Shown here one piece after another: positions 2,463 through 23,214 of a stretch of 64,000 bases of DNA. A model generated the notes under the pieces. It did no database searches. It was not told the origin of the DNA and saw nothing but the letters and a program-made list of their open reading frames with translations. The DNA comes from Gemmatimonadota bacterium (GTDB lineage Bacteria; Gemmatimonadota; Gemmatimonadetes; Gemmatimonadales; Gemmatimonadaceae), in contig JAJPIM010000045.1 of assembly GCA_021324775.1 (NCBI GenBank), positions 248,001 through 312,000 of the forward strand. Direction: 5' to 3'. Within the stretch, counting starts at the first letter, position 1. Every line of letters starts with the position of its first letter. The position numbers and the translations under genes are program-made.

Positions 2463-4585
2463 GTGGCGAGCAGAGCCTCTATGCGGATGGGAAAGTCGCG
2501 GACACGCCGGCCGGTGGCGTGAAAGACGGCGTTGGCGATCGCCGGCGCCGTCCCCACGATCGCGATCTCGCCCAGCCCCTTCACACCCAGCGGATTCACG
2601 TGCGGATCCGACTCCTCGACGAACGCGACATCGAGCGAGGCGACATCCAGATTGACCGGCACGAGATAATCCGCGAGCGATGCGTTGACGGTCCGCCCGT
2701 CCCGTGCATCGACGACGGTCTGCTCCAGGAGCGCCATCCCGATGCCGCCGACCATTCCACCAATGCACTGGCTGCGGGCCAGCCGCGGGTTGATGATCCG
2801 GCCCGCCGCATACGCCCCGGACGCGCGCCGCACCCGCACCACGCACAGATCCGGATCGACCGCCACTTCCACGAACACGGCGCCGAACGCGTGCATGGAA
2901 TACTGCCGCTGCTCTTCCCCGCGCGCGCTCGACGCCTCGGCAACGATCGGGACGCCGCCCCGGCGGGCGATGATGTCGCGATAGTTGGTCCCGCCGGCCT
3001 GTCCGCGTGCCACGAGACACGCGGCCTGCACGGCCGATCCGACCGACGCCATGGTCATCGATCCGCCGTGGGGTGGTGTCGCCGGAAAATCCGACCGCCC
3101 GAGAGAGAAGCGTACGTCCGCCGGGGCGAGACCGAGCGTGTCGGCGGCGACCTGCGTCATGGAGGTGTACGTGCCGGGCCCCATGTCACTGGCGGCAGCC
3201 TCCACTTCGGCCGTTCCGTCGGCCAGGATCCGCACCCGCGCCTTCGCCAGCCCCCGCGATGCCGGATAGGTCGCCGCCGACATGCCCCACCCGATAAGCA
3301 TCCGCCCATCCCGCATCGAGCGAGGACGCGCATCTCGCTGTGCCCACCCGAACCGCTCGGCACCGAGCGTATAACACTCGCACATCGAGCGTGAGGAGAA
3401 CGGGAGGCCGCTCTGCTCATTCACCGCCGGTTCGTTGCGACGCCGCAGCTCGATCGGGTCCAGGCCGAGTGCAACGGCCAGTTCGTCCATCGCGCATTCC
3501 AGCGCCAGGACGCCGCTCGCTTCGCCCGGCCCTCGCATGTACGTGGGCGTGCTGCTATCGACCGGTACCAGCCGGTAGCTGGTCCGCACGTTCGGGCACG
3601 CATAGAGATACGTCGACGGCGTGGTGACGGCCTCGATATGCTCCTCGTAGCGCGACGTCTCGGCGGTCACGTCGTGGACCAGCGCCGAAAGCCGTCCATC
3701 GGACCCTGCTGCCAGGGTTACGCGCTGCACGGTGCGCGGCCGGTATCCAGTCGTATAGAACATCTGGCGGCGCGACAGAACGAGCTTGACCGGCCGGCCG
3801 ACATGGCGCGCGGCGAGCGCCGCCACGGTCACGTGCGGCCATGTCCGAAGTGATGTCCCGAACGCGCCACCGATGAACGGGCACACCACGAGCACGTGAC
3901 TCTCCGGCAGCCCGAATATCGCCGCGATCTCGGCGGCTTCGTTCACCACAAACTGGCTCTTGCTCCAGAGCGTCAGATGATCGCCATCCCATGACGCCAC
4001 CGCCGCGTGTGGCTCCATCGGATTGTGATGCTCCCGCGCGATGACATAGCTCGCATCGACCCGGATCGCGTCCGCTGCAACTGCTGCGGGGTCGCCGCGG
4101 ATGCTGTCGGCGAGAATTCGCCCGCTTCCCTTCCTCGCCGCCTCCGGTACGATCGCCGATGCGCCCGGCGCGTCCATGCGCGTCGCCGGCGACTCGGCTG
4201 CATAGCTGACGCGGACGGCGGCCGCGGCGTGCTCCGCGGCATCCAGCGTCGTTGCGATCGCTACGGCGACCGGCTGGCCAAAAAATCTGATCTGATCGTC
4301 CTGGAGGACATGGAGTCGCTCGCCCGCGGCCGGATCGACGAACCCGCGGTGGTCGTGATACGGCAGGCGCGGTGCGTTGTGGTGCGTGAGGATCGCGATC
4401 ACGCCGCCAAGCCGCGTCGCGGCGCTCGCGTCGATCGCCACGATCCGGCCCAATCCAGCCGAGCTCGAAACCATCACGGCGTACACCTGGCCGGGTTGGT
4501 TGAACTCGGCCGCGTAGCGGGCCGCGCCCGTCACCTTGCTCCGTCCGTCGACACGCGACAGCGCGGTACCAATCGACGGCGCCAT
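2459..4585 (-). CDS. molybdenum hydroxylase, Mo-binding subunit (PaoC-like)
   Basis: About 708 residues, the large subunit of a xanthine dehydrogenase/aldehyde oxidase-type enzyme that binds the molybdopterin cofactor and carries the active site. N-terminal region (1-130) is the Ald_Xan_dh a/b hammerhead; later come FIGGAFGTSL (Mo-pterin loop), YMRGPGEASGV, and near the C-terminus GVKGLGEIAIVG containing the catalytic Glu, followed by NAVFHATGRRVRDFPIR. The start at 4585 overlaps the FAD-subunit stop (ATGA). Together with the next two genes it forms a three-subunit enzyme of the PaoABC type, which oxidises aldehydes or N-heterocycles with water as oxygen donor. No Tat signal is visible, so it is probably cytoplasmic. 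Confidence 0.92.
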   Translation of the reverse strand: MAPSIGTALSRVDGRSKVTGAARYAAEFNQPGQVYAVMVSSSAGLGRIVAIDASAATRLGGVIAILTHHNAPRLPYHDHRGFVDPAAGERLHVLQDDQIRFFGQPVAVAIATTLDAAEHAAAAVRVSYAAESPATRMDAPGASAIVPEAARKGSGRILADSIRGDPAAVAADAIRVDASYVIAREHHNPMEPHAAVASWDGDHLTLWSKSQFVVNEAAEIAAIFGLPESHVLVVCPFIGGAFGTSLRTWPHVTVAALAARHVGRPVKLVLSRRQMFYTTGYRPRTVQRVTLAAGSDGRLSALVHDVTAETSRYEEHIEAVTTPSTYLYACPNVRTSYRLVPVDSSTPTYMRGPGEASGVLALECAMDELAVALGLDPIELRRRNEPAVNEQSGLPFSSRSMCECYTLGAERFGWAQRDARPRSMRDGRMLIGWGMSAATYPASRGLAKARVRILADGTAEVEAAASDMGPGTYTSMTQVAADTLGLAPADVRFSLGRSDFPATPPHGGSMTMASVGSAVQAACLVARGQAGGTNYRDIIARRGGVPIVAEASSARGEEQRQYSMHAFGAVFVEVAVDPDLCVVRVRRASGAYAAGRIINPRLARSQCIGGMVGGIGMALLEQTVVDARDGRTVNASLADYLVPVNLDVASLDVAFVEESDPHVNPLGVKGLGEIAIVGTAPAIANAVFHATGRRVRDFPIRIEALLAT

Positions 4586-5574
4586 CAGACACCGCCCTCC
4601 GGGCCGCTGGCGGCCATCTCGAGGGCGCGTATTATCGTGCGGCGCAGCAATTCGACCTTGAAGGCGTTGCCGGACAGCGGACGTGCACCGGCGATCGCGA
4701 GACCGGCGGCTGCCTCCCAGGCCGGTTGGCCGGGTGATTGTCCCACCAGCGCCTCCTCGGAAACGCGGAACCGCCATGGTCTGGTCCCCACGCCGCCCGC
4801 GGCCAGTCGCGCGGCGCGGACGATGCCCCCACTCAGGTACAGCGCGGCCGCCACGGAGACCACGGCGAACTCATAGGACGCCCGATCGCGGACCTTGAGG
4901 TATCGCGCGCGCCGCCCGTACCGTCCGTGCGGTACGTGGACTTCCACGATCAACTCGCCGCGCTCGAGGGCGTGCTCCAGATGCGGAGTCTCACCCGGAA
5001 GCCGGTACAGATCCTCGACAGATATCCGCCGCTCCCCGGCCGGGCCCCGCAGCGCGACCGTCGCATCGAGCGCGACCAACGCGACGGCCAGGTCCGACGG
5101 GTGAGTGGCCACGCAGTGCGCACTCGTCCCGAAGAGCGCATGGCCGGTGTTGACGCCGTCGATGGCCGAGCATCCGGAGCCGGGCGTTCGCTTGTTGCAC
5201 GGAGCATCCAGCGTCCGGAAGTACGGGCACCGCACGCGCTGGAGCAGGTTGCCTCCGATCGACGCCATGTTGCGGATCTGCGGCGACGCACCTTCTATCA
5301 ACGCTTCGGCGATCAGAGGCTGCGAGCCGAGGACGGCCGGATGCGCCGCGACGTCGGACATCCGGGCCAGCGCGCCGATGACGAGCGCGTCGTCCTGCAG
5401 CCGGACGGCCCGAAGCGGCAGACCATTGATGTCGATCAGCCGCTGCGGCTGCTCGACTTCCTCCCGCATGAGATCGATGAGCGTGGTTCCGCCAGCGACA
5501 TATCGCCCACCTGCCGCGGCGCCGTCGATCGCCGCCGGTTCGTTGTCCACCGCGACGTAGGAAAAGGGATGCAC
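4585..5574 (-). CDS. molybdenum hydroxylase, FAD subunit (PaoB-like, extra Fe-S)
   Basis: About 329 residues, the FAD-binding medium subunit. The pyrophosphate loop GGTTLIDLM lies near residue 30 and SIGGNLLQ near residue 110. Next to it is RCPYFR...CNKR.PGSGC plus a later HCVATHP: this four-Cys pattern is known from E. coli PaoB, where it binds an additional [4Fe-4S] cluster. The start is a GTG at 5574, two bases after the stop of the 2Fe-2S gene; longer upstream readings run into that gene. It passes electrons from the 2Fe-2S subunit to FAD. Confidence 0.9.
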   Translation of the reverse strand: MHPFSYVAVDNEPAAIDGAAAGGRYVAGGTTLIDLMREEVEQPQRLIDINGLPLRAVRLQDDALVIGALARMSDVAAHPAVLGSQPLIAEALIEGASPQIRNMASIGGNLLQRVRCPYFRTLDAPCNKRTPGSGCSAIDGVNTGHALFGTSAHCVATHPSDLAVALVALDATVALRGPAGERRISVEDLYRLPGETPHLEHALERGELIVEVHVPHGRYGRRARYLKVRDRASYEFAVVSVAAALYLSGGIVRAARLAAGGVGTRPWRFRVSEEALVGQSPGQPAWEAAAGLAIAGARPLSGNAFKVELLRRTIIRALEMAASGPEGGV

Positions 5575-5576
5575 CG

Positions 5577-6170
5577 TCAGCCCGCGCGCGCCGCCTGATC
5601 GACGGCGGCCACGATGCCGGGATACGCCCCGCACCGGCAGATGTTGCCACTCATCCACGCACGGATCTCATCCAGCGAGCCAGCGTGCCCCTCCGCGATG
5701 CACGCGACCCCGGAGATGATCTGCCCAGGCGTGCAGTACCCGCACTGGAACGCGTCGTGCTCGATGAACGCCGCCTGCAGCGGGTGGAGCGTGTCGCCAT
5801 CCGCGAGCCCCTCGATGGTCGTGATCCGGGTGCCCTGTTGCATCACAGCAAGCGTGAGACACGAGTTGATTCGCCGGCCGTCCACCAGCACTGTGCATGC
5901 TCCGCAGGCGCCCTGATTGCACCCCTTCTTTGTCCCCGTCATGTGCAGGTGCTCACGCAACGCGTCGAGCAGCGACGTGCGGGGGTCCAGGTCGAGCCGG
6001 TGCAACCGTCCGTTGACGGTCAGCCCGACGGAGACCGCCAGTGGCGCTGGATTCGCCACCCCAGCGGCCACCGGGACCCGGCTGTCGCGGACTCCGTTGG
6101 AGGCATTGAGGAATCGTAATCGCGGTCCCACCATTGGGGGGATGGGTGAGTCTGTCGCCAACCCGCACAC
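5577..6170 (-). CDS. molybdenum hydroxylase, 2Fe-2S subunit (PaoA-like)
   Basis: Up to 197 residues; ATG 6134 is an alternative start. It has the plant-type ferredoxin motif CNQGACGAC and a further Cys in NSCLTL, and the C-terminal [2Fe-2S]-binding domain with CGYCTPGQ and CRCGAYPG, so both clusters typical of the family are present. First gene of the operon 6170-1576. The N-terminal extension shows no twin-arginine motif. The promoter must lie in the short divergent gap with the LMF-like gene, where I saw no convincing box. Confidence 0.92.
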   Translation of the reverse strand: MCGLATDSPIPPMVGPRLRFLNASNGVRDSRVPVAAGVANPAPLAVSVGLTVNGRLHRLDLDPRTSLLDALREHLHMTGTKKGCNQGACGACTVLVDGRRINSCLTLAVMQQGTRITTIEGLADGDTLHPLQAAFIEHDAFQCGYCTPGQIISGVACIAEGHAGSLDEIRAWMSGNICRCGAYPGIVAAVDQAARAG

Positions 6171-6217
6171 GCATCACATTGTTCCAGCGCGTACGCGCGC
6201 CACCGGTCGGCGCCGCC

Positions 6218-7867
6218 ATGCCGCAGACGATGGGACCGGTCGCCACGAGGGCCCGATCCATTCCGAGTGCTACTGGATTACGGGAGCCTGTTTCGCCCTG
6301 GCGCCTGACGGCTCCGGCCTTCGGCATGCTCTGGCCGCGATGGCTTTTTCTCCGCGCGCTCGGAGTCATCTTCGGATCGGCGTTCTACTCGTTGCACTTC
6401 CAGATCCGCGGCCTGATCGGTCCGGCAGGGATCGAACCTGCGGATGCCTATCTCGCCGCGCTCGCCGCCGCCATCCCGCGGACGACCCGCATCTGGACCG
6501 CGCCGACGCTCTTCTGGTGGTCGGCGACCGACGGGGCGCTCATGGTGGTCGTGGGCGCGGGATTGGTGGCGGCGGCGCTGCTCGCGATCAACGTGTGGCC
6601 GCGCGTGACGGCGGCGGTGTGCACGGTTCTCTTCCTGTCCTGTGTCGTCGCGCTCCAGACGTTCTCGTCGTATCAGTCCGACGGGATGCTGCTTCAGGCG
6701 GGGGTCGCGGCCGTGCTGCTCGCGCCGCGCGGCTTGCGGCCGGGGTTGGGTGAGTGGTCGCCACCATCGTGGGCGAGCGTGTGGCTGCTGCGATGGGAGT
6801 GGTTCTCGATCTACTTCGGGTCAGGCGTGGTCAAACTGTGGTTCCGCGATCCCCAGTGGCGCACGCTTACGGCGATGGATCACTACTACGAGAACAGCCC
6901 GCTGCCCTCCTGGGTCGGATGGTACGCGCAGCAACTCCCGCACTCGGTCCACGCCGCGACCGCGTTCCTCACGCTGTTCGCGGAGCTGGTGACACCCTGG
7001 GTACTCCTGGCTCCCCGGCGGCCCCGGATCGCGGTCGCCGTCGCGCTGACCGCCTTTCAGATCGGGATCATCGCGACCGCGAACTACGCGTTTCTCAACT
7101 ATCTCGTGCTCGCCCTCGGCGTATTCCTGGTTGACGACCTGGCGCTCACCGGACTCGCCCGGCGCGTTTGGCACCCGCGGCGTAGGGTCGCGGCAACTGC
7201 TGCGCAACCGCCAGCCGCCGAGCCGCGGCTGGCCAGAGTGGTTCGGCCCGGCGGGTACGGTCGCTGGATCGGCCCCACAAGCACCGTCGTTCTCCTCGCG
7301 ACGGTCTACCTCTCGGCTTCGTCCTTCCTCGCCGACAAGCTGCCCGATGCGATGACCGCGCCGGCGCGGTATGCCGAGGCGTTTCGTTTTGCCAACTCGT
7401 ACGGCTTGTTCGCCGTGATGACGACGGCCGAATACGAGATCGAGTTCCAGGGGACGCGGGACGACAGCGTCTGGGTCGCGTATCCGTTCCGCTACAAGCC
7501 ACAGGATCCGTTCGCTGCGCCGGGGCTCTACGCTCCCTATCAGCCACGATTCGAATGGAATCTCTGGTTCGCGTCGCCCGGTCCATGGTACGAGAGCCCG
7601 TGGGTCGTCACAACGGAGGCCCGTCTCCTGCAAGACGACCCGCAAGTGCTGGCACTCTTCGCCGGGAATCCGTTCGCGACGTCTCCGCCACGCGCCGTCC
7701 GCACCGTACTCTGGCGGTACTGGTTCACCGATGCTGCGACCCGGCGGCGGACTGGCCGCTGGTGGAACCGGGACTTGCTTGGAGTATTCGCAGGGACGGT
7801 GAATCGGGGCACCGACGGTTCCGTGCAGTTCATGCCGGCCTCGGTGCCTCCGGAATCCGCCCGATGA
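6218..7867 (+). CDS. lipase maturation factor-like membrane protein
   Basis: About 549 residues from ATG 6218 (an upstream start at 6134 would overlap the divergent 2Fe-2S gene). Several transmembrane helices fill roughly residues 30-330, and the early signature GLIGPAGIEPADAYL followed by SYQSDGMLLQAG, FGSGVVKL and LPSWVGWYAQQLP is typical of the LMF1/LMF2 family. The C-terminal soluble part (WVAYPFRYKPQDP... ending in WYRD-like WNRDLLGVF) matches the family too. In animals LMF1 helps fold lipases in the ER; bacterial members have unknown function. Confidence 0.85.
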   Translation: MPQTMGPVATRARSIPSATGLREPVSPWRLTAPAFGMLWPRWLFLRALGVIFGSAFYSLHFQIRGLIGPAGIEPADAYLAALAAAIPRTTRIWTAPTLFWWSATDGALMVVVGAGLVAAALLAINVWPRVTAAVCTVLFLSCVVALQTFSSYQSDGMLLQAGVAAVLLAPRGLRPGLGEWSPPSWASVWLLRWEWFSIYFGSGVVKLWFRDPQWRTLTAMDHYYENSPLPSWVGWYAQQLPHSVHAATAFLTLFAELVTPWVLLAPRRPRIAVAVALTAFQIGIIATANYAFLNYLVLALGVFLVDDLALTGLARRVWHPRRRVAATAAQPPAAEPRLARVVRPGGYGRWIGPTSTVVLLATVYLSASSFLADKLPDAMTAPARYAEAFRFANSYGLFAVMTTAEYEIEFQGTRDDSVWVAYPFRYKPQDPFAAPGLYAPYQPRFEWNLWFASPGPWYESPWVVTTEARLLQDDPQVLALFAGNPFATSPPRAVRTVLWRYWFTDAATRRRTGRWWNRDLLGVFAGTVNRGTDGSVQFMPASVPPESAR

Positions 7868-8577: not shown

Positions 8578-10701
8578 TCACCAGCGGTAGGTAATCGTGG
8601 CGCGGAACTCACGGGGCTCCGCGGGATGCGTGTGGATGTCCGCCACACCCGCGGCCGGCTCCCCGGGCAGGCGAGACACGTAGTAGTAGTCGATGTCGCT
8701 CGCGTAGGTGTTGAGCAGGTTGAAAACATTGACACCCGCGATCCAGTGGTCCGCGACTGCATACCCGACATCGGCATACACGAGCGTGGTGGCCTTCGAG
8801 GACACGCTGTCGTTCTGAGTGAGCGCTCGCGGGCCGAAGTAGCGGAGGCGTAACCCCGCCTCCAGGCGCGCAAGGGGCGCGGACAGATCGTGCACAGCGA
8901 CGCCGCCATCGAAGGTCGCCGCAAGCGCTTCGGGTACGTAGTTACCCGCCGCCTCATGGTCAGTGTAGCGGGCGTGCGACCACGCGTAGTCGGCGTCGAT
9001 CGCAAGCCATCGGAGCGGCAAATAGTAGTTGGCAAACTCGATCCCATATCGGCGCGTGGGGCCGCTGGGCTCACTGCCCCCGACGTCGGCGTCCCAGACC
9101 AGCTCTGATCTCAGATCGAGCAGCCAGAAGGTGACCGAGGTCTGAAGGCCCGGTATCCGCACCGTCCGCACGCCGGCTTCCGCGCCCTCGCTGCGTGGCA
9201 GGGGCGTCGCCGGCGCCGTCGGCGAGACGATGCCGCGGGCATCGTTGCTGTGGTACCCGTAGCCACCATTGATGTAAAACTCCGTCGCCGCCCACGGGCC
9301 GAAGACCACACTGGCCTTTGGACTGAGCAGGCCCGAAGCCACGTTGGCCGACGTGCCGCCCGTGTCGTTGTGAACGGCGAACCAGAAGTAGTCGCCTCGC
9401 AATCCAACGACGGTGCGAAGCCAGTGTGTCCACGATGTCCGGTTCTCCGCGAACGGCCCCACGTTGGTTTCTCCAATGTCGTTGACCGTGACCGGGTTCA
9501 GCCGGATGCGGGCCTCCGTGTGATACAGACCGTTCTCGATGTCGTCGTTACGGACCTGAATGCCGACGGTGTTTTGGCTCGGACGGCCCGCAAGCGTGCC
9601 GAAAATCGTGTGGGTCGCCTGACCGCCGAAGAGCGATCGGTTGTCGTGTTGCTCGATCTGATCGCCGCGCACGGGATCGAACAGGAAGTAGGTGAAGTTG
9701 GAGAAGAGATCGAGGTTATAGTGCTCGGCGTAGGCATCCGCGTGGGACATCGAATGCGCTCCAATCGAGTGCCAGGCGCCATTGAGCGCGTAGCGGCTCG
9801 TATTGCCTCCGTCGGTCGTATCGATCTCGCCATACCGGTCGATGAGACCGGCCGCGATGGCCCGATCCGGCACCTGGTCGGTCGCTCGCCACTGGTTGTG
9901 GTACGCCATCCCCGTCACCGAGAAGCCGTGTTGCGAGTCCCCCTGTGAGTAGCGTAGCACACCGTCGTACTTGCGCTCGTTGTCGCCGATGTCCCAGGGC
10001 CCGTCGTCCTGCTCGAATTCCGCCGAGTAGATCAGGTTACCGTCGCCCACCCGGGCGTTGTTGGCCACTATCGCGCGACCGTACCCCACTTGCCCGCCTT
10101 CGAGTCTCGCCACCGCGCCCGGCAGGGAATCGTAGTAGCGGATGTTGAAGGACCCTGCCGACCCGAAATCGCCGGCGTCTGCGTAATACGGCCCCTTCTT
10201 GAAATCGACCCCCTCGATCAGCTCCGGGATGACGAAGTTCAGATCTGAATACCCTTGCCCGTGCGCGTGGCTGGGCATGTTGACCGGGACGTCGTCGACG
10301 CTGAGCGCGAGATCGGTACCGTGGTCCAGATTGAATCCGCGCAAGAAGTACTGGTTGGCCTTGCCGCTCCCGCTATGTTGGGTGACGATCACTCCGGGAA
10401 CGTTTTCCACCACTTCGGCTGGGCGCAACAGCGGACGGAGTGCCAGGTCGGCTGCACCAACCGTTCCCTGATTGGCGGTCGTCGCGGTCCCCACTTGGCT
10501 CGTCACGCGCCCCTGGGTGACCACCGTGTCGAGCGTCGCCGCCGCCTTCCGACGCGTGGCGGTGTCAGGCTGCCACGGTGGCGGGGCGGTATCCCGCGCG
10601 AGAGCCTGCGCCGCCGCACCCCGGCCGGCGGTTGCCATAACCATCACGATGACCCTCACGATCACTGTCATTCCGCGGGCCAGCCGTTGACCATCAGGCA
10701 T
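8578..10701 (-). CDS. TonB-dependent outer-membrane receptor
   Basis: About 707 residues from ATG 10701, which has AGAGG eight bases upstream. A hydrophobic signal (MTVIVRVIVMVMATAGRG...) precedes a plug domain with VENVPGVIVTQHSGSG, QYFLRGFNLDHGTD and GVDFKKGPYYADAGDFG, then a long beta-barrel ending in RATITYRW with the terminal aromatic. The His-containing HAHGQGYSDLNF segment is characteristic of a receptor subgroup usually found beside HupE/UreJ-like genes, as here. It imports a ligand across the outer membrane with TonB energy; the cluster suggests a metal or metal complex, but the ligand is not proven. Confidence 0.88.
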   Translation of the reverse strand: MPDGQRLARGMTVIVRVIVMVMATAGRGAAAQALARDTAPPPWQPDTATRRKAAATLDTVVTQGRVTSQVGTATTANQGTVGAADLALRPLLRPAEVVENVPGVIVTQHSGSGKANQYFLRGFNLDHGTDLALSVDDVPVNMPSHAHGQGYSDLNFVIPELIEGVDFKKGPYYADAGDFGSAGSFNIRYYDSLPGAVARLEGGQVGYGRAIVANNARVGDGNLIYSAEFEQDDGPWDIGDNERKYDGVLRYSQGDSQHGFSVTGMAYHNQWRATDQVPDRAIAAGLIDRYGEIDTTDGGNTSRYALNGAWHSIGAHSMSHADAYAEHYNLDLFSNFTYFLFDPVRGDQIEQHDNRSLFGGQATHTIFGTLAGRPSQNTVGIQVRNDDIENGLYHTEARIRLNPVTVNDIGETNVGPFAENRTSWTHWLRTVVGLRGDYFWFAVHNDTGGTSANVASGLLSPKASVVFGPWAATEFYINGGYGYHSNDARGIVSPTAPATPLPRSEGAEAGVRTVRIPGLQTSVTFWLLDLRSELVWDADVGGSEPSGPTRRYGIEFANYYLPLRWLAIDADYAWSHARYTDHEAAGNYVPEALAATFDGGVAVHDLSAPLARLEAGLRLRYFGPRALTQNDSVSSKATTLVYADVGYAVADHWIAGVNVFNLLNTYASDIDYYYVSRLPGEPAAGVADIHTHPAEPREFRATITYRW

Positions 10702-10712
10702 GGCTCGCCTCT

Positions 10713-11249
10713 TTACGGCAGTGGCTTGGCCGCGTCGCCTTTGATGAACAGCAGACTTTCGCGCCGCCCGCCGTATTCGGCCATCACCACATTGACCTGA
10801 TCGTCGAAAAGCTCGATCAGCGCCTGGTTGCGGATCCGCACACCGGACAGCCCGCCAGGCGTCGTCACGCGCAGGCACGCCCATAACAGATCGCCCGTCA
10901 GGCGTGACCCGCACCACTGCATCGGGAGTGCGTGGCCGTCTGGCCCGACCGCCGTGAACACGGAGGCGAGATAGGCAAAGCTGCTCGAATCGGATGTCCG
11001 GACGCTGGCCAGGAAACGCCCGTGTGCTCGACGCGTGATGGCGGTGTCGAGATCGTTGGCGAACACGCGCACGGTGACTGTCGCCTGATGGGACGCCGCG
11101 TCATACGTGATCGTGGTGATCGTGGTGTGCAAGGGATGCAGTCGTCCCCCGGACGCACCGGGGGCCGCCCCCAATACGAACGCAATCCCGCAGCACGCGG
11201 CGCGTCCGGCGAGGGGCCGCAGCCGGCGCGCCCACCGGTGATCACCCAT
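10713..11249 (-). CDS. DUF6702-like secreted protein
   Basis: About 178 residues starting at ATG 11249, sixteen bases after the HupE-like stop. A twin-Arg-containing N-terminus and hydrophobic segment (RLRPLAGRAACCGIAFVLG) look like a signal peptide. The mature start HPLHTTITTITYD followed by VTVRVFANDLDTAI is typical of the DUF6702 family found beside HupE-type proteins. Function unknown; probably a small periplasmic beta-sandwich. Fourth gene of the 13.2-8.6 kb group. Confidence 0.65.
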   Translation of the reverse strand: MGDHRWARRLRPLAGRAACCGIAFVLGAAPGASGGRLHPLHTTITTITYDAASHQATVTVRVFANDLDTAITRRAHGRFLASVRTSDSSSFAYLASVFTAVGPDGHALPMQWCGSRLTGDLLWACLRVTTPGGLSGVRIRNQALIELFDDQVNVVMAEYGGRRESLLFIKGDAAKPLP

Positions 11250-11265
11250 CACCCGCGACCACCGC

Positions 11266-11883
11266 TCACCACGCCGTGAAGAACGGACTTCGCTGCACGG
11301 CCCAACTCGCTGCGACCGCGGTGACCAGCGCGGAGATCGCAACAACACGCAGCCGCAACGGCGACGCCGTGCGGATGGGCAGGCGAATGCTCACCAGCAT
11401 CCGGTCGATGCCCCACAGGACCAGAAATGCCCAGCCGAGAACGAAGATCTGCCCCAGCTCGATGCCGACGTTGAACCCGAAGAGGGGCAGCGCGAGGTGG
11501 TCGACGAACATGCTCTTGAGGTAATTCGCGAAGCCGGCGCCATGCACGAGGCCGAAGACGCCCGCGAATAGCGGCCGGTAGCGGCCGCCCCAGAGTGCGG
11601 TCGCCCGATCGCGGACCGCGATGTTCTCGATGCCCGTGATCAGGATGGTGATGGGGATCAGGAATTCGATCAGCGACGACGGCAGCGTCACCACTCCGGT
11701 CACGGCCAGCGCCAGCGTGATGGAGTGCCCCACGGTGAACGCACTCACGACCCACAGCGCATCCCGCCAGTCGCGGGGCCGGTAGATCGCCGCCAGCGCC
11801 AGCAGGAACAGGATGTGATCGGCGGCGCCCACATCCACGATGTGCCGGAAGCCCAGATGCACGAATGTCAGCAGCTCGCTCAC
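11266..11883 (-). CDS. HupE/UreJ-family membrane protein
   Basis: A 205-residue polytopic protein with about six helices. Family marks: GFRHIVDVGAADHILFL in helix one, SAFTVGHSITL, FGLVHGAGFAN and FNVGIELGQ. The conserved His/Asp residues within the membrane are those that make HupE/UreJ proteins candidate nickel or other divalent-metal permeases; here there is no hydrogenase or urease gene, so the metal is unknown. Together with the TonB receptor and DUF6702-like protein it would give a route from outer to inner membrane. Confidence 0.85.
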   Translation of the reverse strand: MSELLTFVHLGFRHIVDVGAADHILFLLALAAIYRPRDWRDALWVVSAFTVGHSITLALAVTGVVTLPSSLIEFLIPITILITGIENIAVRDRATALWGGRYRPLFAGVFGLVHGAGFANYLKSMFVDHLALPLFGFNVGIELGQIFVLGWAFLVLWGIDRMLVSIRLPIRTASPLRLRVVAISALVTAVAASWAVQRSPFFTAW

Positions 11884-11902
11884 CGGGACACCGGGCTGCA
11901 GG

Positions 11903-13243
11903 TCATGAGTGCGATGTCTGCGGCAGCTCGGCCAGCGCTTTACGGGCGCTGTCCGGCTGCATGGGCTGAAAGTACGGATTGACCTGCAAGGCGCGTTCGA
12001 GGTACGACCGCGCCAGCGCTGTCCGCCCGGCGGCGCGGGCGATCATACCCGCGTGATAGAACAGCATGCCGTCCTGCGTGCCTTGGCTCAGTGCGCGCGC
12101 CATGGCGGTCTCCGCATCCGCCGCGCGCCCGCTCTTGTAGAGTGCCCACGCCAACACGTCGTAGCCATAGATGTCCTGGCGCGTCGCGAGTTCGGCGCGT
12201 GCCTTGGCGAGCACCTCGGACACCCTGCGGCCATGATCCAGCAGGAACAGGCTCCACGCCCGGTGATACGCGCCGGGCTGTTTGGATACGGCGATTTCCA
12301 TCACGCGCGCATACTCGGCTGCTTGTGCCGTGTCGCCCAGGGCGGCAAAGGCGTCGCTGATGGTGCCCAACGTCGCCGGGTCGAGATTGGTCATGATGGC
12401 GCGCTCACCGGCGTCGACCGCGCCGCGCCAGTCGTGGCGCACGGCGTCGAGGTGCGACTCGGCCGCGAGGAGGCGGTAGTCGCCGGGATGCGCGACGAGT
12501 CCATTGGCATAGGCGTAGCTGGCGACATCGGGGTGCCCGGCCCGAAACTCCAGGTCGCCGAGCCGCAGCCAGAACCACGCGACCTGTTCGCGCGGCAGGT
12601 CGGGGCGCCGACCCGCTTCGTCGAGCGCCAGGTGCAGCAGATGGCGCGCGTCCCCGGTGCGACCTTCGATTTCCTCCCACCGCGCCAGGCGCGAGGTGAC
12701 CGCCAACTCGCCCTTGTGGCCCCGTAAACTGTCGAAGGTGGCGCGTGCCTCATCGTAGCGCCCCAGCTCGAACTCTACTTCGCCCAAAGCCGCCCGATAG
12801 GAGAGATGCGTGGGGTCGGATTCCGCCAGCCCACGCTGCACGTCGAGGGCCTCGGCGAAGCGATGCTCGGAAACAAGCGCCGATGCCAGCACTTGCGACG
12901 CCGACGCATTGTGCACCGCACGATTGGCGAGTGACTGTCGGGCGTCCGCCTCGGCACGCAGGACGTCTTCGTACCGCCCAGTCTCCCGAGCCCGCTGCAG
13001 ATAGAGCTGGGCCACGCGCGCCAGATCCATGGCGCCGGTGGGATCGCGGCGGGCCCGTCTCTCGTAGAACACGATGTCCGAGTCGCGTATCGCCGCCTCG
13101 GGCAGCACCGGCCGGCTCGGCATCGACCTGCCGATCGTCGTCCCCGGGGCTCGCAGCCGAGCATACGCGACGCGCCCACCGGCGGCGAGCGAGGCGCCGG
13201 CCGTCACCAGGACGGCGAGTACGACTGTGGATGGCCGGCTCAT
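11903..13243 (-). CDS. TPR-repeat protein, secreted or anchored
   Basis: A 446-residue protein with an N-terminal hydrophobic segment (residues 6-27) and then tetratricopeptide-like helical repeats across most of the length, e.g. ALGEVEFELGRYDEARATFDSL, DAFAALGDTAQAAEYARVM and FYHAGMIARAAGRTALARSYLERAL (read as three separate TPR units). TPR arrays bind protein partners. It lies between the DUF4331 genes and hupE-like gene, a position seen in other clusters of this kind. A 14-base duplication sits over its start (see repeat at 13238). Confidence 0.8.
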   Translation of the reverse strand: MSRPSTVVLAVLVTAGASLAAGGRVAYARLRAPGTTIGRSMPSRPVLPEAAIRDSDIVFYERRARRDPTGAMDLARVAQLYLQRARETGRYEDVLRAEADARQSLANRAVHNASASQVLASALVSEHRFAEALDVQRGLAESDPTHLSYRAALGEVEFELGRYDEARATFDSLRGHKGELAVTSRLARWEEIEGRTGDARHLLHLALDEAGRRPDLPREQVAWFWLRLGDLEFRAGHPDVASYAYANGLVAHPGDYRLLAAESHLDAVRHDWRGAVDAGERAIMTNLDPATLGTISDAFAALGDTAQAAEYARVMEIAVSKQPGAYHRAWSLFLLDHGRRVSEVLAKARAELATRQDIYGYDVLAWALYKSGRAADAETAMARALSQGTQDGMLFYHAGMIARAAGRTALARSYLERALQVNPYFQPMQPDSARKALAELPQTSHS

Positions 13244-13265
13244 GGTAGACCGCTCATGGTAGACC
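13238..13265. repeat. 14-bp tandem duplication over TPR start codon
   Basis: GCTCATGGTAGACC occurs twice in tandem. On the minus strand the upstream copy supplies a second ATG, 14 bases before the real start, out of frame: it opens a five-codon frame (MSGLP) whose TGA overlaps the TPR start as ATGA. It could be a small translational-coupling leader or a chance slippage product. Confidence 0.7.
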
Positions 13266-13280
13266 GCTCAATGAGCGCAC

Positions 13281-13832
13281 CTAGTTAGGGTTGCCCAGAT
13301 AGGGAAATGCCGCCTGGTAGTCCGTGTGTGCGGGGACGTTGTCGTTGCACAACTGCGGACATGAATTGCCCGCCGACTCGATCAGCGTGCCGAAGATCGC
13401 GTCGAGCCCCGCCGCCACGACGTCGTCGGTGAGTTTCCGGCCGCCGTAACCATCGGCGAGCGCCCAGCTCAACCACCCTGCGGTGCTCGGGTTCTTGCTG
13501 GTGTCGACGATGAGCATGTCGGGGAGCAGGACGGCGGCCAACGTGTTCTGGACGATCGTGTCACGTCCGGCAACCGTGGCCACGAAATTCTTGAACTCGG
13601 GCTCGATGATCGTGTCCTGCGCAGGCCCGATCGAGCCATGGGTCGGGTGGCTGCGTTTGGCGAGGAAGACCTCGCTGACCAGCGGGTTGCCGAGGCGCTG
13701 CAATTGATCGTAGGCGCGCGTGGCGCTGGGAGCGGTCGCGCTGGTGGTCGTGCAGGCGGCGACGGCGGTAACCGCCGCCATCGTGGCGGCGGCCAGCCGG
13801 CGACGGGCAGTCTGAGAAGAGCGGGACAGCAT
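13281..13832 (-). CDS. DUF4331 C-terminal part, separate lipoprotein-like gene
   Basis: A 183-residue protein with a signal segment ending AAVTAVAACTTT (lipobox-like, Cys as lipidation candidate). The rest, beginning YDQLQRLGNPLVSEVFLAKRSH and ending in an AFPYLGNPN tail, matches the C-terminal half of DUF4331 proteins, including the conserved LGNPLV segment and the closing P-Y-L-G. The N-terminal half is encoded by the next gene upstream (13873-14607), with only 40 bases between them. Both pieces have their own secretion signals, so this is probably a genuine gene split and not a sequencing error. Confidence 0.75.
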   Translation of the reverse strand: MLSRSSQTARRRLAAATMAAVTAVAACTTTSATAPSATRAYDQLQRLGNPLVSEVFLAKRSHPTHGSIGPAQDTIIEPEFKNFVATVAGRDTIVQNTLAAVLLPDMLIVDTSKNPSTAGWLSWALADGYGGRKLTDDVVAAGLDAIFGTLIESAGNSCPQLCNDNVPAHTDYQAAFPYLGNPN

Positions 13833-13872
13833 GTGATGAGTCCTCGGATAGAAGTCGTATCGGGCGCGCTCG

Positions 13873-14607
13873 TCAGCGGCTGATAGTGCCCCAGAGACCG
13901 ATCTTTGCATTGCCGCCGGATGTGAGCATGGTCGTCGGCAGCTCCATCACGATCGACAGGACGTTGTGCCCGGCGACGTAGTCGATGCCCGGGTTGCGGA
14001 ACCCGCTCGCGGTGGGCGTCGCAGGCAGCTGCGAGAGCGGTCCGGTCACCGGCTTGCGGTCGGGGAGGATCCGGAAGAACTGCTCGAGATCGATGAAGAA
14101 CGGATCGCTCCGCGGCCCGGCGAAGAACTGAATCCCGCCGCCCGTGAGCACCTTGTTGACCGGGCCCGTGATGATCGGAGCGGCTGAGGACACCCTGTTC
14201 TGCATGGCACCGACCACGGGCGGCGCGACGGGACCTCTGACCTGCACGGTCTGGCTGGAGCCCGTGCCTTGAAAGGTCACCTGGAAAACAAGATTCTCGA
14301 TCGGGGCACCGGTGTTCTCGACTTTGAACTGATACAGGAGATTGGGATCGAACGAGACCGACGGCGTGTTTGCCGGCGTGAGGAATGCCCAACTGTCCAT
14401 CACCAACACGATGTTGCCCGCGGTAGCGCCGGGGAACGCGTAGAAGTCGGTCATGTCGGACGCCGGATTGAGCTCCACTTCGGGGCTGTCCTGGTGGTCT
14501 GACGCCATCGCCCGGCGGGCGATCAGACCCCCGGCGAAAAGCCCTGCCACCACCAGTGCGGCCGCCAGCACGTGCGGCGGTGCGAACAACGGTCTGCGGT
14601 CTGACAT
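13873..14607 (-). CDS. DUF4331 N-terminal part, exported
   Basis: A 244-residue protein with a transmembrane or signal segment (about residues 10-30, AAALVVAGLFAGGL) and then SDHQDSPEVELNPASDMTDFYAF, the hallmark start of mature DUF4331 proteins, followed by VLVMDSWAFLTPANTPSVSFDP and NGPV-type strands. Family function is unknown; the fold is predicted beta-rich and extracytoplasmic. It is the first gene of the minus-strand group that runs to the TonB receptor. Ends within the middle of a normal DUF4331 length, the rest being in the next gene. Confidence 0.82.
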   Translation of the reverse strand: MSDRRPLFAPPHVLAAALVVAGLFAGGLIARRAMASDHQDSPEVELNPASDMTDFYAFPGATAGNIVLVMDSWAFLTPANTPSVSFDPNLLYQFKVENTGAPIENLVFQVTFQGTGSSQTVQVRGPVAPPVVGAMQNRVSSAAPIITGPVNKVLTGGGIQFFAGPRSDPFFIDLEQFFRILPDRKPVTGPLSQLPATPTASGFRNPGIDYVAGHNVLSIVMELPTTMLTSGGNAKIGLWGTISR

Positions 14608-14832
14608 TGCCGCCTCCAGAAACGGGACGAACGACCTGCGAGCGAGGTGGATGGATCACGAGAGAGCGGTCTGATCACAGCGCACCGGGGCGCCGCGATC
14701 GAACTACGGTCGCACCTCGCGCGAGGCGGCGATGCCAGCGTAGATGACCGCTTCCGCACGCACTACGACTCGCGCGTGAAATCGGATCTCTCGGGCGTTG
14801 GGTGGCGCAGCGTTCCCCGGCGCGCGGAGCGC

Positions 14833-14877
14833 CGAAAAGCGGCTGCCCGAGAAGCGGCCGGCCGAGAAGCGGCCGGC
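14833..14877. repeat. three 15-bp tandem repeats forming hairpins
   Basis: Three consecutive units of CGAGAAGCGGCCGGC (the first with two substitutions). Units two and three create an 8-bp perfect stem (GCCGGCCG / CGGCCGGC, loop AGAAG, 14857-14877). Lies just after the stop of the MarR gene on the minus strand, so it may end that transcript. Confidence 0.7.
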
Positions 14878-14890
14878 AAATAGCCCGAGG

Positions 14891-20229: not shown

Positions 20230-23214
20230 GTGAGAGCTCGCTGGTTCATTGGCGCTGCCGTGCCTTTGCTGACGCTCATCGTCGCAGTACAGGCGTCGGC
20301 GCAAAACACGACCCGCCGGATCACGGGCCGAATCGTCGATTCGGCTGACCACCAGCCGCTCGCCGCCGCCCAGGTGATCCTGACGGGCACGACGATCGGC
20401 ACCATCACGTCCGACAGCGGCACGTTCACCCTTCGCGTGCCGGCCGGTGCGAGCCTGTCGGTGCGGCGCATCGGATACCGGTCGTCCACCGTCAAGGTGG
20501 CCGACGCCAGTACTGACGTGACCGTGGACCTGCTGCGCGACGTGCTGCAGCTCGATCAGCAGGTGATCACCGGCGTCGGGACGCAGATCTCGTCCAAGAA
20601 CGCGGCGACCCAGGACCCGGTGATCATGTCCGGGGCGATCACTTCGGTTCCGACGCCGACGATCGAGAACGCGCTCGAGGGCAAGGTCCCGGGCGCACTG
20701 ATCAGCGACAACTCGGGAGCCCCCGGTGGCGGGTTGCAGGTCCAGGTCCGCGGCACCACCTCGATCTACGCGACCGCGGCTGGCCAGCCGCTGTATGTGA
20801 TCGACGGTGTGATCATGAGCAACGCGTCGATCCCGTCAGGCCTCAACTCGGTGTCCGGTGCCGCCGGCAACACGTCGGGCAACGGCCCGTCCCCGCAGGA
20901 CCAGCAGACGAACCGTATCGCCGACATCAATCCGGAGGACATCGAGTCGATGCAGTTTCTCGAGGGCTCCGCGGCGTCGGCCATCTACGGCAGCAAGGGC
21001 GCGGCCGGCGTGATCCTGATTACGACGAAGCACGGTGCCTCGGGAAAGCCGGTCTACAGCTTCACCCAGCGTCTGGGATCGTACGATGTGAGCAACTCGT
21101 TGCCCGTGCGCCGGTTCTCGCTGGCCGAGGCCCTGACCGACAACGTCAGCCGCGGCGCCCCTCTCACCGCAGCCGAGGTGACGCAGAACTACAACGCGTG
21201 CGGCGGCTTCTGCGACTTCCAGCACGAGCTGTACGGCCAGACGGGCCCGTCCTACGAGACGGACCTCAGCATCAGTGGCGCGCTCCCGTCGACCGAGTAC
21301 TTCCTGTCCGGCCTGGACAAGTACGACAACGGCGCGCAGATCAACACCGGCTATCAGAAGCAATCGATCCGTACCAACATCGTCCAGCATGTCGCGCCGA
21401 CGCTCACGGCGTCCGCCAACGTCGCCTACTCGGCGTCGCTGGCCCGCCGCGGTGTCAACGGCAACGACAACCTGGGGATCGCCGGGTATGACAACATCTC
21501 GTACACGCCGTCGTACTTCGACATGGCCAGGCAGAACGCAAACGGCTCGTACGTCATCAACCCGTACGGGGTGGCGAACGCCTTCGCCGATGCGAAACAA
21601 ATCCTGACGCCGGAGAACGTCAACCGCATCACCGCCGGTGGCAACGTCGACTTCAAGCCGATCACGACCCGGGCACAGAGCCTCGAGTTCATTTTCCAGG
21701 CCGGTGCCGACTACGCCGTCCAGAAGGACCAGTTCTACGCGCCGCCCTCCCTGCAGGTCGAGACGTCGCCGCTGAGCGCCTTCGCCGGCACGTCGACCTA
21801 CCAATCGGCGACGAACCAGTTGTCGAACTACTCGTTCAGCATCGTGCACGTCTTCACCGGCATCCACGGCGTGCAGGCGACGTCGTCGGTCGGTCTGACG
21901 CACGATGAGAACGCGCTCTTCCTGCCGGACATCGTCTCACAGAACCTGGTCAGCGGCCTCGCCAACCAGCAGTACGGCGTCGTGCAGACCAGTTTCTACA
22001 ACCAGCAGAACACGATTAACCAGGGCTTCTACGGGCAGGAACAGCTCGTCATGTTCAACGAACGGTTGGCCCTGACCGGCGGTATCAACTCCGAAGCGAG
22101 CACGAACGACGGTGGCGTGAACCGCTACTACTCGTACCCCAAGGCGTCGGTGTCCTACCGCTTCCCCAACCCGTTCTCGGGCGTCGACGAGATCAAGCTG
22201 CGTGGCGCGTATGGCGTCTCCGGGACCGTGCCGAACTACGGCGTGAAGTTCAACGCCGACTCGTTGCGTGGATATTCGGGCAGCCTCGGCGTCAAGGAGG
22301 GCCTGGTGGCCGGTGACCCCGGCATTACCCCGGAGACGAACACCGATTTCGAGGGCGGATTTGACGTCACCCTCTTCAAGGGCAAGCTGACGTTCAACGC
22401 CACGGGCTACCAGAAGCGAATCACAAACCTCCTGCTGCAGGCCCAGGCGCTCCCCTCGCTGGGCTACGACGAGCAATGGATCAACGGCGGCGAGATCACG
22501 AACCAGGGTCTCGAGCTGCAGGTCGCAGCGACGCCGATCACGATCGGCAAGTTCACCTGGGTAACGGGGGAAAACTTCGCCCGCAACCAGGCGGTGGTGA
22601 ACAACATCCCTGTCCCCACATTCACGCCGGGCTTCACCGCCTTCGGCTTCAGCCCGTTCGGCGGATACCAGATCGAGGCCGGTGCCTCGCCGTCCGCGTT
22701 CTGGGGAGACGTGATGAGAAACGGCGTCCCGACGCTGGTGGCGCTCGGCGACGCGAACCCCGCGTTCACCGTGGGATTCACCAACGACTTCAACTACGGC
22801 CGCTTCCACTTGCACACCTTCCTCGACATGCGCCGCGGGTTCAAGGTCTCGGACCTCACCGAGCAGTATTTCGACGGGGCGCACAATCTCGAGGACACGG
22901 CGGGTACCAACGCGCGAACGATCGCCGAGTCGCAGGGCCTCACGCCGTACCTCTACAACGGGGATTATCTGAAGCTGCGCGAGCTTACCCTGCGGTATGA
23001 CATACCAGGCAACTTCCTGGAACGCCTCGGACGTGGCGTCGTTCACACCGCAGCCCTGAGTGCATCCGGCCGCAACCTGGTGACCTGGACCAAGTATCCC
23101 GGACTGGACCCCGATGTCAGCAACTTCAGCAACCAGCTGGTCGGCCGGGGGCAGGACGTCACGCCGTATCCGCCGACCCGCAGCTTCTTCCTCTCCGTCG
23201 ATCTGGGCCTCTAA
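20230..23214 (+). CDS. SusC/RagA-family TonB-linked outer-membrane protein
   Basis: A 994-residue protein from GTG 20230, preceded by GGAGGAGAG; upstream in-frame starts would give an implausible Arg/Pro-rich leader. Signal peptide to about residue 25 (…QASAQ). A carboxypeptidase-regulatory-like beta domain follows (RRITGRIVDSADHQPLAAAQ, residues 30-110), then the SusC plug with VQVRGTTSIYATAAGQPLYV-type signature, MQFLEGSAASAIYGSKGAAG and a large barrel. It is the TonB-driven channel that works with the SusD-like lipoprotein encoded one base downstream. The cargo, glycan or peptide, cannot be told; no hydrolase is linked. Confidence 0.93.
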   Translation: MRARWFIGAAVPLLTLIVAVQASAQNTTRRITGRIVDSADHQPLAAAQVILTGTTIGTITSDSGTFTLRVPAGASLSVRRIGYRSSTVKVADASTDVTVDLLRDVLQLDQQVITGVGTQISSKNAATQDPVIMSGAITSVPTPTIENALEGKVPGALISDNSGAPGGGLQVQVRGTTSIYATAAGQPLYVIDGVIMSNASIPSGLNSVSGAAGNTSGNGPSPQDQQTNRIADINPEDIESMQFLEGSAASAIYGSKGAAGVILITTKHGASGKPVYSFTQRLGSYDVSNSLPVRRFSLAEALTDNVSRGAPLTAAEVTQNYNACGGFCDFQHELYGQTGPSYETDLSISGALPSTEYFLSGLDKYDNGAQINTGYQKQSIRTNIVQHVAPTLTASANVAYSASLARRGVNGNDNLGIAGYDNISYTPSYFDMARQNANGSYVINPYGVANAFADAKQILTPENVNRITAGGNVDFKPITTRAQSLEFIFQAGADYAVQKDQFYAPPSLQVETSPLSAFAGTSTYQSATNQLSNYSFSIVHVFTGIHGVQATSSVGLTHDENALFLPDIVSQNLVSGLANQQYGVVQTSFYNQQNTINQGFYGQEQLVMFNERLALTGGINSEASTNDGGVNRYYSYPKASVSYRFPNPFSGVDEIKLRGAYGVSGTVPNYGVKFNADSLRGYSGSLGVKEGLVAGDPGITPETNTDFEGGFDVTLFKGKLTFNATGYQKRITNLLLQAQALPSLGYDEQWINGGEITNQGLELQVAATPITIGKFTWVTGENFARNQAVVNNIPVPTFTPGFTAFGFSPFGGYQIEAGASPSAFWGDVMRNGVPTLVALGDANPAFTVGFTNDFNYGRFHLHTFLDMRRGFKVSDLTEQYFDGAHNLEDTAGTNARTIAESQGLTPYLYNGDYLKLRELTLRYDIPGNFLERLGRGVVHTAALSASGRNLVTWTKYPGLDPDVSNFSNQLVGRGQDVTPYPPTRSFFLSVDLGL

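Follow-up and report, generated by a model that had tools for sequence, protein, structure and literature searches.

A six-gene DUF4331-TPR-HupE-DUF6702-TonB receptor cluster as a candidate route for transition-metal acquisition in Gemmatimonadota

A stretch of 64,000 nucleotides (nt) from a Gemmatimonadota bacterium (GCA_021324775.1, contig JAJPIM010000045.1, positions 248,001-312,000 of the forward strand), hereafter called the window, carries six co-directional genes on the minus strand, which run from 14607 to 8578 with gaps of 40, 37, 19, 16 and 11 nt. The first two share one DUF4331 domain (PF14224), jointly covering profile positions 1-242 and 243-421: an exported N-half (13873-14607; 115.7 bits, profile positions 1 to 236) and a C-half that is predicted to be a lipoprotein (13281-13832; 53.9 bits, profile 243-421; VTAVAAC). 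They are followed by a tetratricopeptide repeat (TPR) protein with an N-terminal hydrophobic segment (11903-13243; several Pfam TPR models above cut-off), a HupE_UreJ_2 permease (11266-11883; PF13795, 150.2 bits against a cut-off of 24.5, from residue 7), a DUF6702 protein (10713-11249; PF20420, 90.7 bits against a cut-off of 24) and a TonB-dependent receptor (8578-10701; PF07715, 53.8 bits). The starts of the DUF6702 and receptor genes were taken later than those of the longest open reading frames (ORFs). The permease of 205 amino acids consists of the membrane domain only, with no periplasmic domain fused N-terminally; DUF6702, a stand-alone anglerase-like periplasmic domain, is encoded by a separate gene. 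A sequence-only reading of the window had described five protein types in one direction with short gaps and proposed a dedicated uptake route for a metal or metal complex. The types, direction and spacing are as described, but the split of DUF4331 brings the number of genes to six.

Three of these families are found nowhere else in the host genome (4.19 Mb), which has a single HupE_UreJ_2, a single DUF6702 and a single DUF4331 locus, all in this cluster. One congener (G104) shows the same gene order, and all three families went unmatched in G107, the second congener sampled, so that the set looks gained or lost together. Among 200 Gemmatimonadota genomes, the host included, DUF6702 was found in 61, DUF4331 in 31 and HupE_UreJ_2 in 123. 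Chance-level co-occurrence had been named beforehand, along with a missing metal response, as what would speak against the proposed uptake route. The families instead co-occurred above chance in Fisher tests uncorrected for phylogeny: HupE was present in 60/61 genomes with DUF6702 and 63/139 without (p 3.6e-15), DUF6702 in 23/31 genomes with DUF4331 and 38/169 without (p 5.2e-8), and HupE in 26/31 genomes with DUF4331 and 97/169 without (p 0.0036).

The neighbourhoods of DUF4331 were then compared in 35 loci of the phylum, host genome excluded. TPR was present at no fewer than 29, a separate C-half at 27, HupE at 14, DUF6702 at 13 and a TonB receptor at 9; these are minima, as overlapping ORFs mask genes and several contigs stop early, and two loci that scored negative for DUF6702 (L043 and L082) do carry it. 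The DUF6702 profile is loose, having been built on over-extended ORFs (L100 and some alternative-frame ORFs score), and so is the TonB profile, which mixes two receptor subfamilies. Genes for an extracytoplasmic function (ECF) sigma factor and the anti-sigma factor RskA lay within 7 kb at at least 15 of the 35 loci. Scanning genome contigs with the alignment of the DUF4331 N-half gave 457 relatives, of which the best 80 comprised 42 from Gemmatimonadota, 37 from Bacteroidota and one from a cyanobacterium. The last two groups form a mainly Bacteroidota set of 38 loci with the C-half at 37, TPR at 35, a TonB receptor at 30, RskA at 25, an ECF sigma factor at 24 and HupE at 4.

At the cyanobacterial locus among these best 80 relatives, a NicO protein (PF03824) occupies the position of HupE. 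A survey of 145 genomes of the class found DUF4331 in 37, and 38 loci were taken from 35 of these (not included were G314, where DUF4331 is in two fragments, a short piece from G283, and G200, whose locus was already covered as L159). TPR follows DUF4331 in 28 of the loci, NicO in 20 and HupE in 6, giving a permease in 26/38; NicO was confirmed by Pfam in five proteins, and the remaining NicO calls rest on similarity to the L159 protein. Of the 12 loci without a permease, three are cut by a contig end (L234, L254, L256) and seven carry DUF4331 of a type lacking a signal peptide (L260-L262, L264-L267; L265 has no start and resembles L264). With these ten set aside, HupE or NicO follows in 26/28 cyanobacterial loci. 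In 25 of the 26 permeases a His-headed domain (such as HKPSDS, HWADL or HPLGNF) was seen by eye to precede the permease in the same chain, the start of the one in L235 being out of view, and there was no DUF6702 match at these permease loci. Similarly, L102 combines a full-length DUF4331 with a fused HDPGL-HupE in a genome where DUF6702 found no match. Related gene orders thus recur in three phyla: Gemmatimonadota, Bacteroidota and Cyanobacteria. That HupE and NicO, two nickel/cobalt-type families, fill one slot is the strongest pointer to the class of substrate; a HupE of Synechocystis has been tied to cobalt (PMC4284471). The window permease was said to keep intramembrane His and Asp residues, and indeed H14, D22, H23, H53 and H114, together with E73, N138, E142 and Q145, show 100% conservation across the 66-68 rows reaching them, all of which were found with a model seeded on the window protein.

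To place DUF6702, its AlphaFold2 (AF2) model (pLDDT 94.4) was compared with solved structures. VIA put 9GCE, the Cu-bound Ang-1, at the top (Z 11.6, rmsd 3.8, 128 residues aligned), followed by ZrgA (Z 10.8) and PA4063 (9.6) and then a drop to 6.5; by the rule of the tool 9GCE and ZrgA are tied. With Foldseek, all eight matches that reached E 0.001 or better were ZrgA and PA4063 structures, and a sequence search of solved structures returned nothing credible (best E 0.34), with no ZrgA sequence match in the PDB. The modelled domain begins with an HPLH motif (11127-11138). Among DUF6702 proteins linked to DUF4331 or TPR, 31 distinct rows fit H-x-x-H (L048, which by eye reads VA before HPLH, was missed by the pattern), and 18 of them, the window not included, have A, G, S or C at the -1 position before this His. 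Column 1 (His) of the trimmed alignment is invariant partly by construction. According to Franco Cairo et al. (PMC12537917), 65% of the DUF6702 family has an N-terminal His, PaDUF6702 binds Ni at 5.6 pM and Co and Cu at nM concentrations, its model has a tri-His site of His1, His28 and His32, and Cu is bound by the Ang domains that HupE/UreJ-2 proteins carry in fusion. Because of the fold match to 9GCE and the His-headed domains fused to the permease where DUF6702 is absent, DUF6702 and HupE look like a split anglerase, in which one two-part device may have undergone fission or fusion. In 21 of an initial 80 loci (including L072, L074 and L058), HupE and DUF6702 were arranged differently, at a distance of 1.8-3.9 kb from each other and without DUF4331. 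In two loci checked by Pfam (L071, L072) the gene in between encodes an M1-type peptidase, in line with the M1 peptidase that PMC12537917 names, along with HAD, among the neighbours of DUF6702.

The N-half of DUF4331 is predicted by the -3/-1 rule to start, once mature, with S-D-H-Q-D (S-D-H codons at 14494-14502). An alignment of 144 distinct rows, left untrimmed and with the window protein among them, shows His at the place of window His38 (mature position 3) in every one of the 140 sequences with a residue in that column. Of the four gapped rows, two are long DUF4331 proteins of L158 (SSH by eye) and two are truncated. Untrimmed alignments (22/22 and 140/140) are the fair tests of this residue, its invariance in the trimmed alignment being partly by construction, with rows chosen and cut at that His. 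Across the 140 rows, 123 have A at the predicted -1 position, 5 each have G or S, and the 7 with Met there are the forms without a signal peptide; mature position 2 is mostly Asp (125 rows), otherwise Ser (8), His (5) or Asn (2). The AF2 model of the mature N-half has a pLDDT of 91 overall and 61 for residues 1-10. An invariant His3 on a loosely modelled N-terminus suits a metal ligand better than a structural role, and the predicted N-terminus would be an arrangement like the ATCUN motif (NH2-X-X-His), whose Cu/Ni binding habit is named in PMC12509749. Alternatively, His3 could contact the C-half, in which a lipobox-like Cys was recognised by eye, also in relatives. No clear solved fold relative of the N-half was found (Foldseek best E 0.17; VIA best Z 6.1), a search that says little because only half a domain was modelled, and sequence comparison of DUF4331 with solved structures returned nothing credible (best E 0.12). 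Several variants of the DUF4331 neighbourhood were observed. Signal-less forms starting MSHH, with no TPR or permease neighbour detected, occur at L260, L261, L262, L266 and L112; at L103 (7605-10684) DUF4331-TPR without HupE adjoins a P-type ATPase with a His-rich N-terminus; in genome G163 the module is split between the loci L098 and L200, with TPR-HupE-DUF6702 on one contig and the DUF4331 halves on another, without TPR. A FAS1-like (fasciclin) protein lies near DUF4331 in several Bacteroidota (L157, 7241-7801, by Pfam; L162, L175, L181).

The His-rich plug motif HAHGQGY pointed out in the receptor is present at 10249-10269. Of the 47 distinct receptors picked by the model (window included), 36 carry it exactly, 3 in a variant form and 8 not at all; these 8 are all from Gemmatimonadota and look like another subfamily. 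All 31 receptors of the Bacteroidota set and some from Gemmatimonadota carry it, with DHGTD lying upstream. It is missing from all 24 further plug regions in the host genome (25 plug matches in all, the window receptor serving as positive control). The siderophore receptor model TIGR01783 scored 52.1 against a cut-off of 223.5, so by NCBIfam this is not a siderophore receptor, and the sequence search of solved structures returned BtuB only (E 2.3e-6). Directly before the receptor, a small and often His-rich ORF was seen in six Bacteroidota loci (L162, 10593-11099; L175, 10524-10919; L174, L181, L157 and L163); the two that were scanned had no Pfam match. The window holds a second TonB plug match at 20623-21012 on the plus strand.

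Taken together, we consider it somewhat probable that the six genes encode one envelope-spanning route for the acquisition of a transition metal. In such a route the receptor, with HAHGQGY at its plug, would admit a metal complex across the outer membrane. In the periplasm, the metal might then be held or passed on by the exported DUF4331 half, through a free X-X-His N-terminus, and by the lipoprotein half, with help from the TPR protein. DUF6702, as a detached anglerase domain, would hand it to the inner-membrane permease HupE, which would take it inward. The inward direction is suggested by the TonB receptor and the anglerase model. Ni(II), Co(II) and Cu(II) are the candidate metals. Ni or Co is indicated by NicO/HupE and PaDUF6702, Cu as well by Ang-1 and ATCUN chemistry, and Zn by ZrgA. 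Of the dedicated uptake route first proposed, the metal-handling part is supported by the replacement of HupE by NicO, the DUF6702 fold and the metal binding of PaDUF6702 (PMC12537917); the receptor is not a constant partner. A broader generalization seems to us possible rather than probable. DUF4331 may represent a class of periplasmic metallochaperones of its own, new and marked by an ATCUN site (X-D/S-His) at the N-terminus. Together with TPR it would be central to a pathway that acquires metal independently of ABC transporters in three phyla, in which HupE and NicO would be interchangeable, the His1-headed capture domain fused (anglerase) or free (DUF6702), and in many lineages a TonB receptor dedicated to the pathway and a switch of ECF sigma and RskA would be added.

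The same parts could serve detoxification or buffering, with the periplasmic proteins sequestering excess Cu or Ni, the permease and receptor adjusting levels, and the ECF sigma/RskA pair switching the genes on under envelope stress. We regard this as unlikely, although RskA and a sigma factor stand near 15/35 phylum loci and near 25/38 and 24/38 of the mainly Bacteroidota loci, respectively, and in Sphingobium exposed to excess Ni no gene was induced more strongly than a HupE/UreJ-like one (PMC5557971). The DUF4331 locus adjoining a P-type ATPase (L103) would also fit, but it is a single case. TonB receptors, moreover, import. The combination of a His1 domain with HupE was likewise proposed for uptake in PMC12537917. 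If the substrate were zinc, DUF6702 would be a carrier resembling ZrgA that feeds HupE. All eight Foldseek matches at E up to 0.001 and the tie of ZrgA with 9GCE in VIA are in keeping with this, as is the alignment of model residue 1 at ZrgA residue 35, His35 and His37 belonging to conserved site 1 of ZrgA (PMC9820375). It nevertheless appears very improbable, given that NicO and HupE are nickel/cobalt families, that PaDUF6702 prefers Ni (PMC12537917) and that no ABC transporter is found among the flanking genes scanned.

Several observations weigh against the acquisition route itself. HupE went undetected at 21/35 phylum loci and is present in only 4/38 of the mainly Bacteroidota loci, and neither the TonB receptor (9/35 versus 30/38 loci) nor DUF6702 is a universal partner. 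Two cyanobacterial loci, L238 and L269, have TPR and no permease in the following sequence (0.9 kb in L238). NicO relatives include exporters, and shared ancestry inflates the Fisher values. For DUF6702, 9GCE was not among the 50 Foldseek matches listed and surfaced only in VIA. The window protein reads GASGGRL directly before HPLH, which offers no canonical -3/-1 site, so its His may not be N-terminal; 13/31 linked rows also lack a small residue before His, and by plain count His28 and His32 of PaDUF6702 would fall on Asn28 and Thr32 of the window protein. Urease and NiFe hydrogenase, which the sequence-only reading had noted as lacking from the cluster, are absent from the whole host genome, as is the B12 marker CbiB (controls positive), so that no Ni or Co sink was found, which weighs against a simple need for Ni or Co; a search for Ni-SOD also gave no match in the host, but was uninformative since its control was silent too. 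Neither a riboswitch nor a conserved metal regulator was found. The uneven presence of HupE might mean that DUF4331, TPR and the TonB receptor form a non-metal module for the surface or for uptake of an organic ligand, with HupE-DUF6702 as a separate metal pair inserted in the operon. Most Bacteroidota DUF4331-TPR-TonB loci have no HupE nearby, some phylum loci have DUF4331-TPR alone, and HupE with DUF6702 also occurs without DUF4331. This account is nonetheless decidedly unlikely in view of the permease that follows in nearly all of the cyanobacterial loci retained above and of the short ORF, frequently rich in His, that precedes the receptor at six loci of Bacteroidota.

Regulation of the cluster was approached through the intergenic region upstream of it (14608-14890, minus strand), a candidate promoter or operator that shows partial conservation in the congener (73% across 307 nt, a span that includes the gene start). 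A search for a metal-responsive operator upstream of 14607 had been suggested. The region has no Rfam match and only weak inverted repeats. Across the window and 27 loci, three tRNAs were the sole Rfam matches, and no riboswitch reached the gathering score. Three imperfect repeat copies with 15 bp spacing occur at 14824-14873. The sole nearby regulator gene lies upstream and is of the MarR family, and the AdcR zinc-regulator model scored 22.5 bits against a cut-off of 175. It was rejected as the regulator because, by ORF lengths, it was not seen at the congener locus. ECF sigma and RskA genes were observed beside the module in L161, L162, L047, L101 and others, with a ChrR-type cupin in L096, and were not seen beside the window module. 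Flanking genes identified by Pfam encode Pal, MarR and LMF1, and ABC transporter components were found neither among the flanking genes scanned nor among the six cluster genes. Downstream of the cluster lie a lipase maturation factor (6134-7867, plus strand, by Pfam) and, by eye, small subunits like those of xanthine dehydrogenase (4585-6170, minus strand).

A full-text literature search, with most subscription journals outside its reach, found no paper that names DUF4331 (PF14224) and, among the matches listed, none that describes this gene combination. Within the literature searched, the parts are known singly, and it is their combination and any role for DUF4331 that we did not find in print. 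DUF4331 is widespread, and its tie to nickel/cobalt-type permeases offers a first functional lead and a testable role. The anglerase idea of 2025 would be extended from fused domains to free carriers, possibly with outer-membrane and regulatory partners. The question of the metal can be addressed directly by binding assays on two small proteins.

Compared with known systems, the window permease shares the intramembrane His/Asp/Glu pattern and single-component design of the HupE/UreJ Ni/Co permeases of hydrogenase, urease and B12 loci, but sits in a host without hydrogenase, urease and CbiB and in a window without a riboswitch. In having an outer-membrane receptor thought to serve a metal it resembles TonB-dependent nickel uptake of the FrpB4 type, although FrpB4 is not known to be tied to DUF4331, TPR or HupE genes. 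The ZrgABCDE zinc importer of Vibrio (PMC9820375) has a similar periplasmic carrier fold with His ligands near the N-terminus, but ZrgA feeds an ABC transporter, for which the scanned flanking genes of the window provide no counterpart. PaDUF6702 (PMC12537917) belongs to the same Pfam family as the window protein, 18/31 of whose linked relatives also have a small residue before His; it differs in its M1 peptidase and HAD neighbours, whereas the window DUF6702 adjoins HupE and has no canonical cleavage site before its His. The word DUF4331 is absent from that paper, and the combination with TPR and a TonB receptor is unmentioned in the portions consulted. The window cluster also resembles the Ang-1 and Ang-2-HupE/UreJ-2 proteins described there, which pair a PF13795 permease with a His-headed periplasmic beta-sandwich; in these the domain is fused to the permease, whereas in the window DUF6702 and HupE are encoded separately and accompanied by DUF4331, TPR and a TonB receptor.

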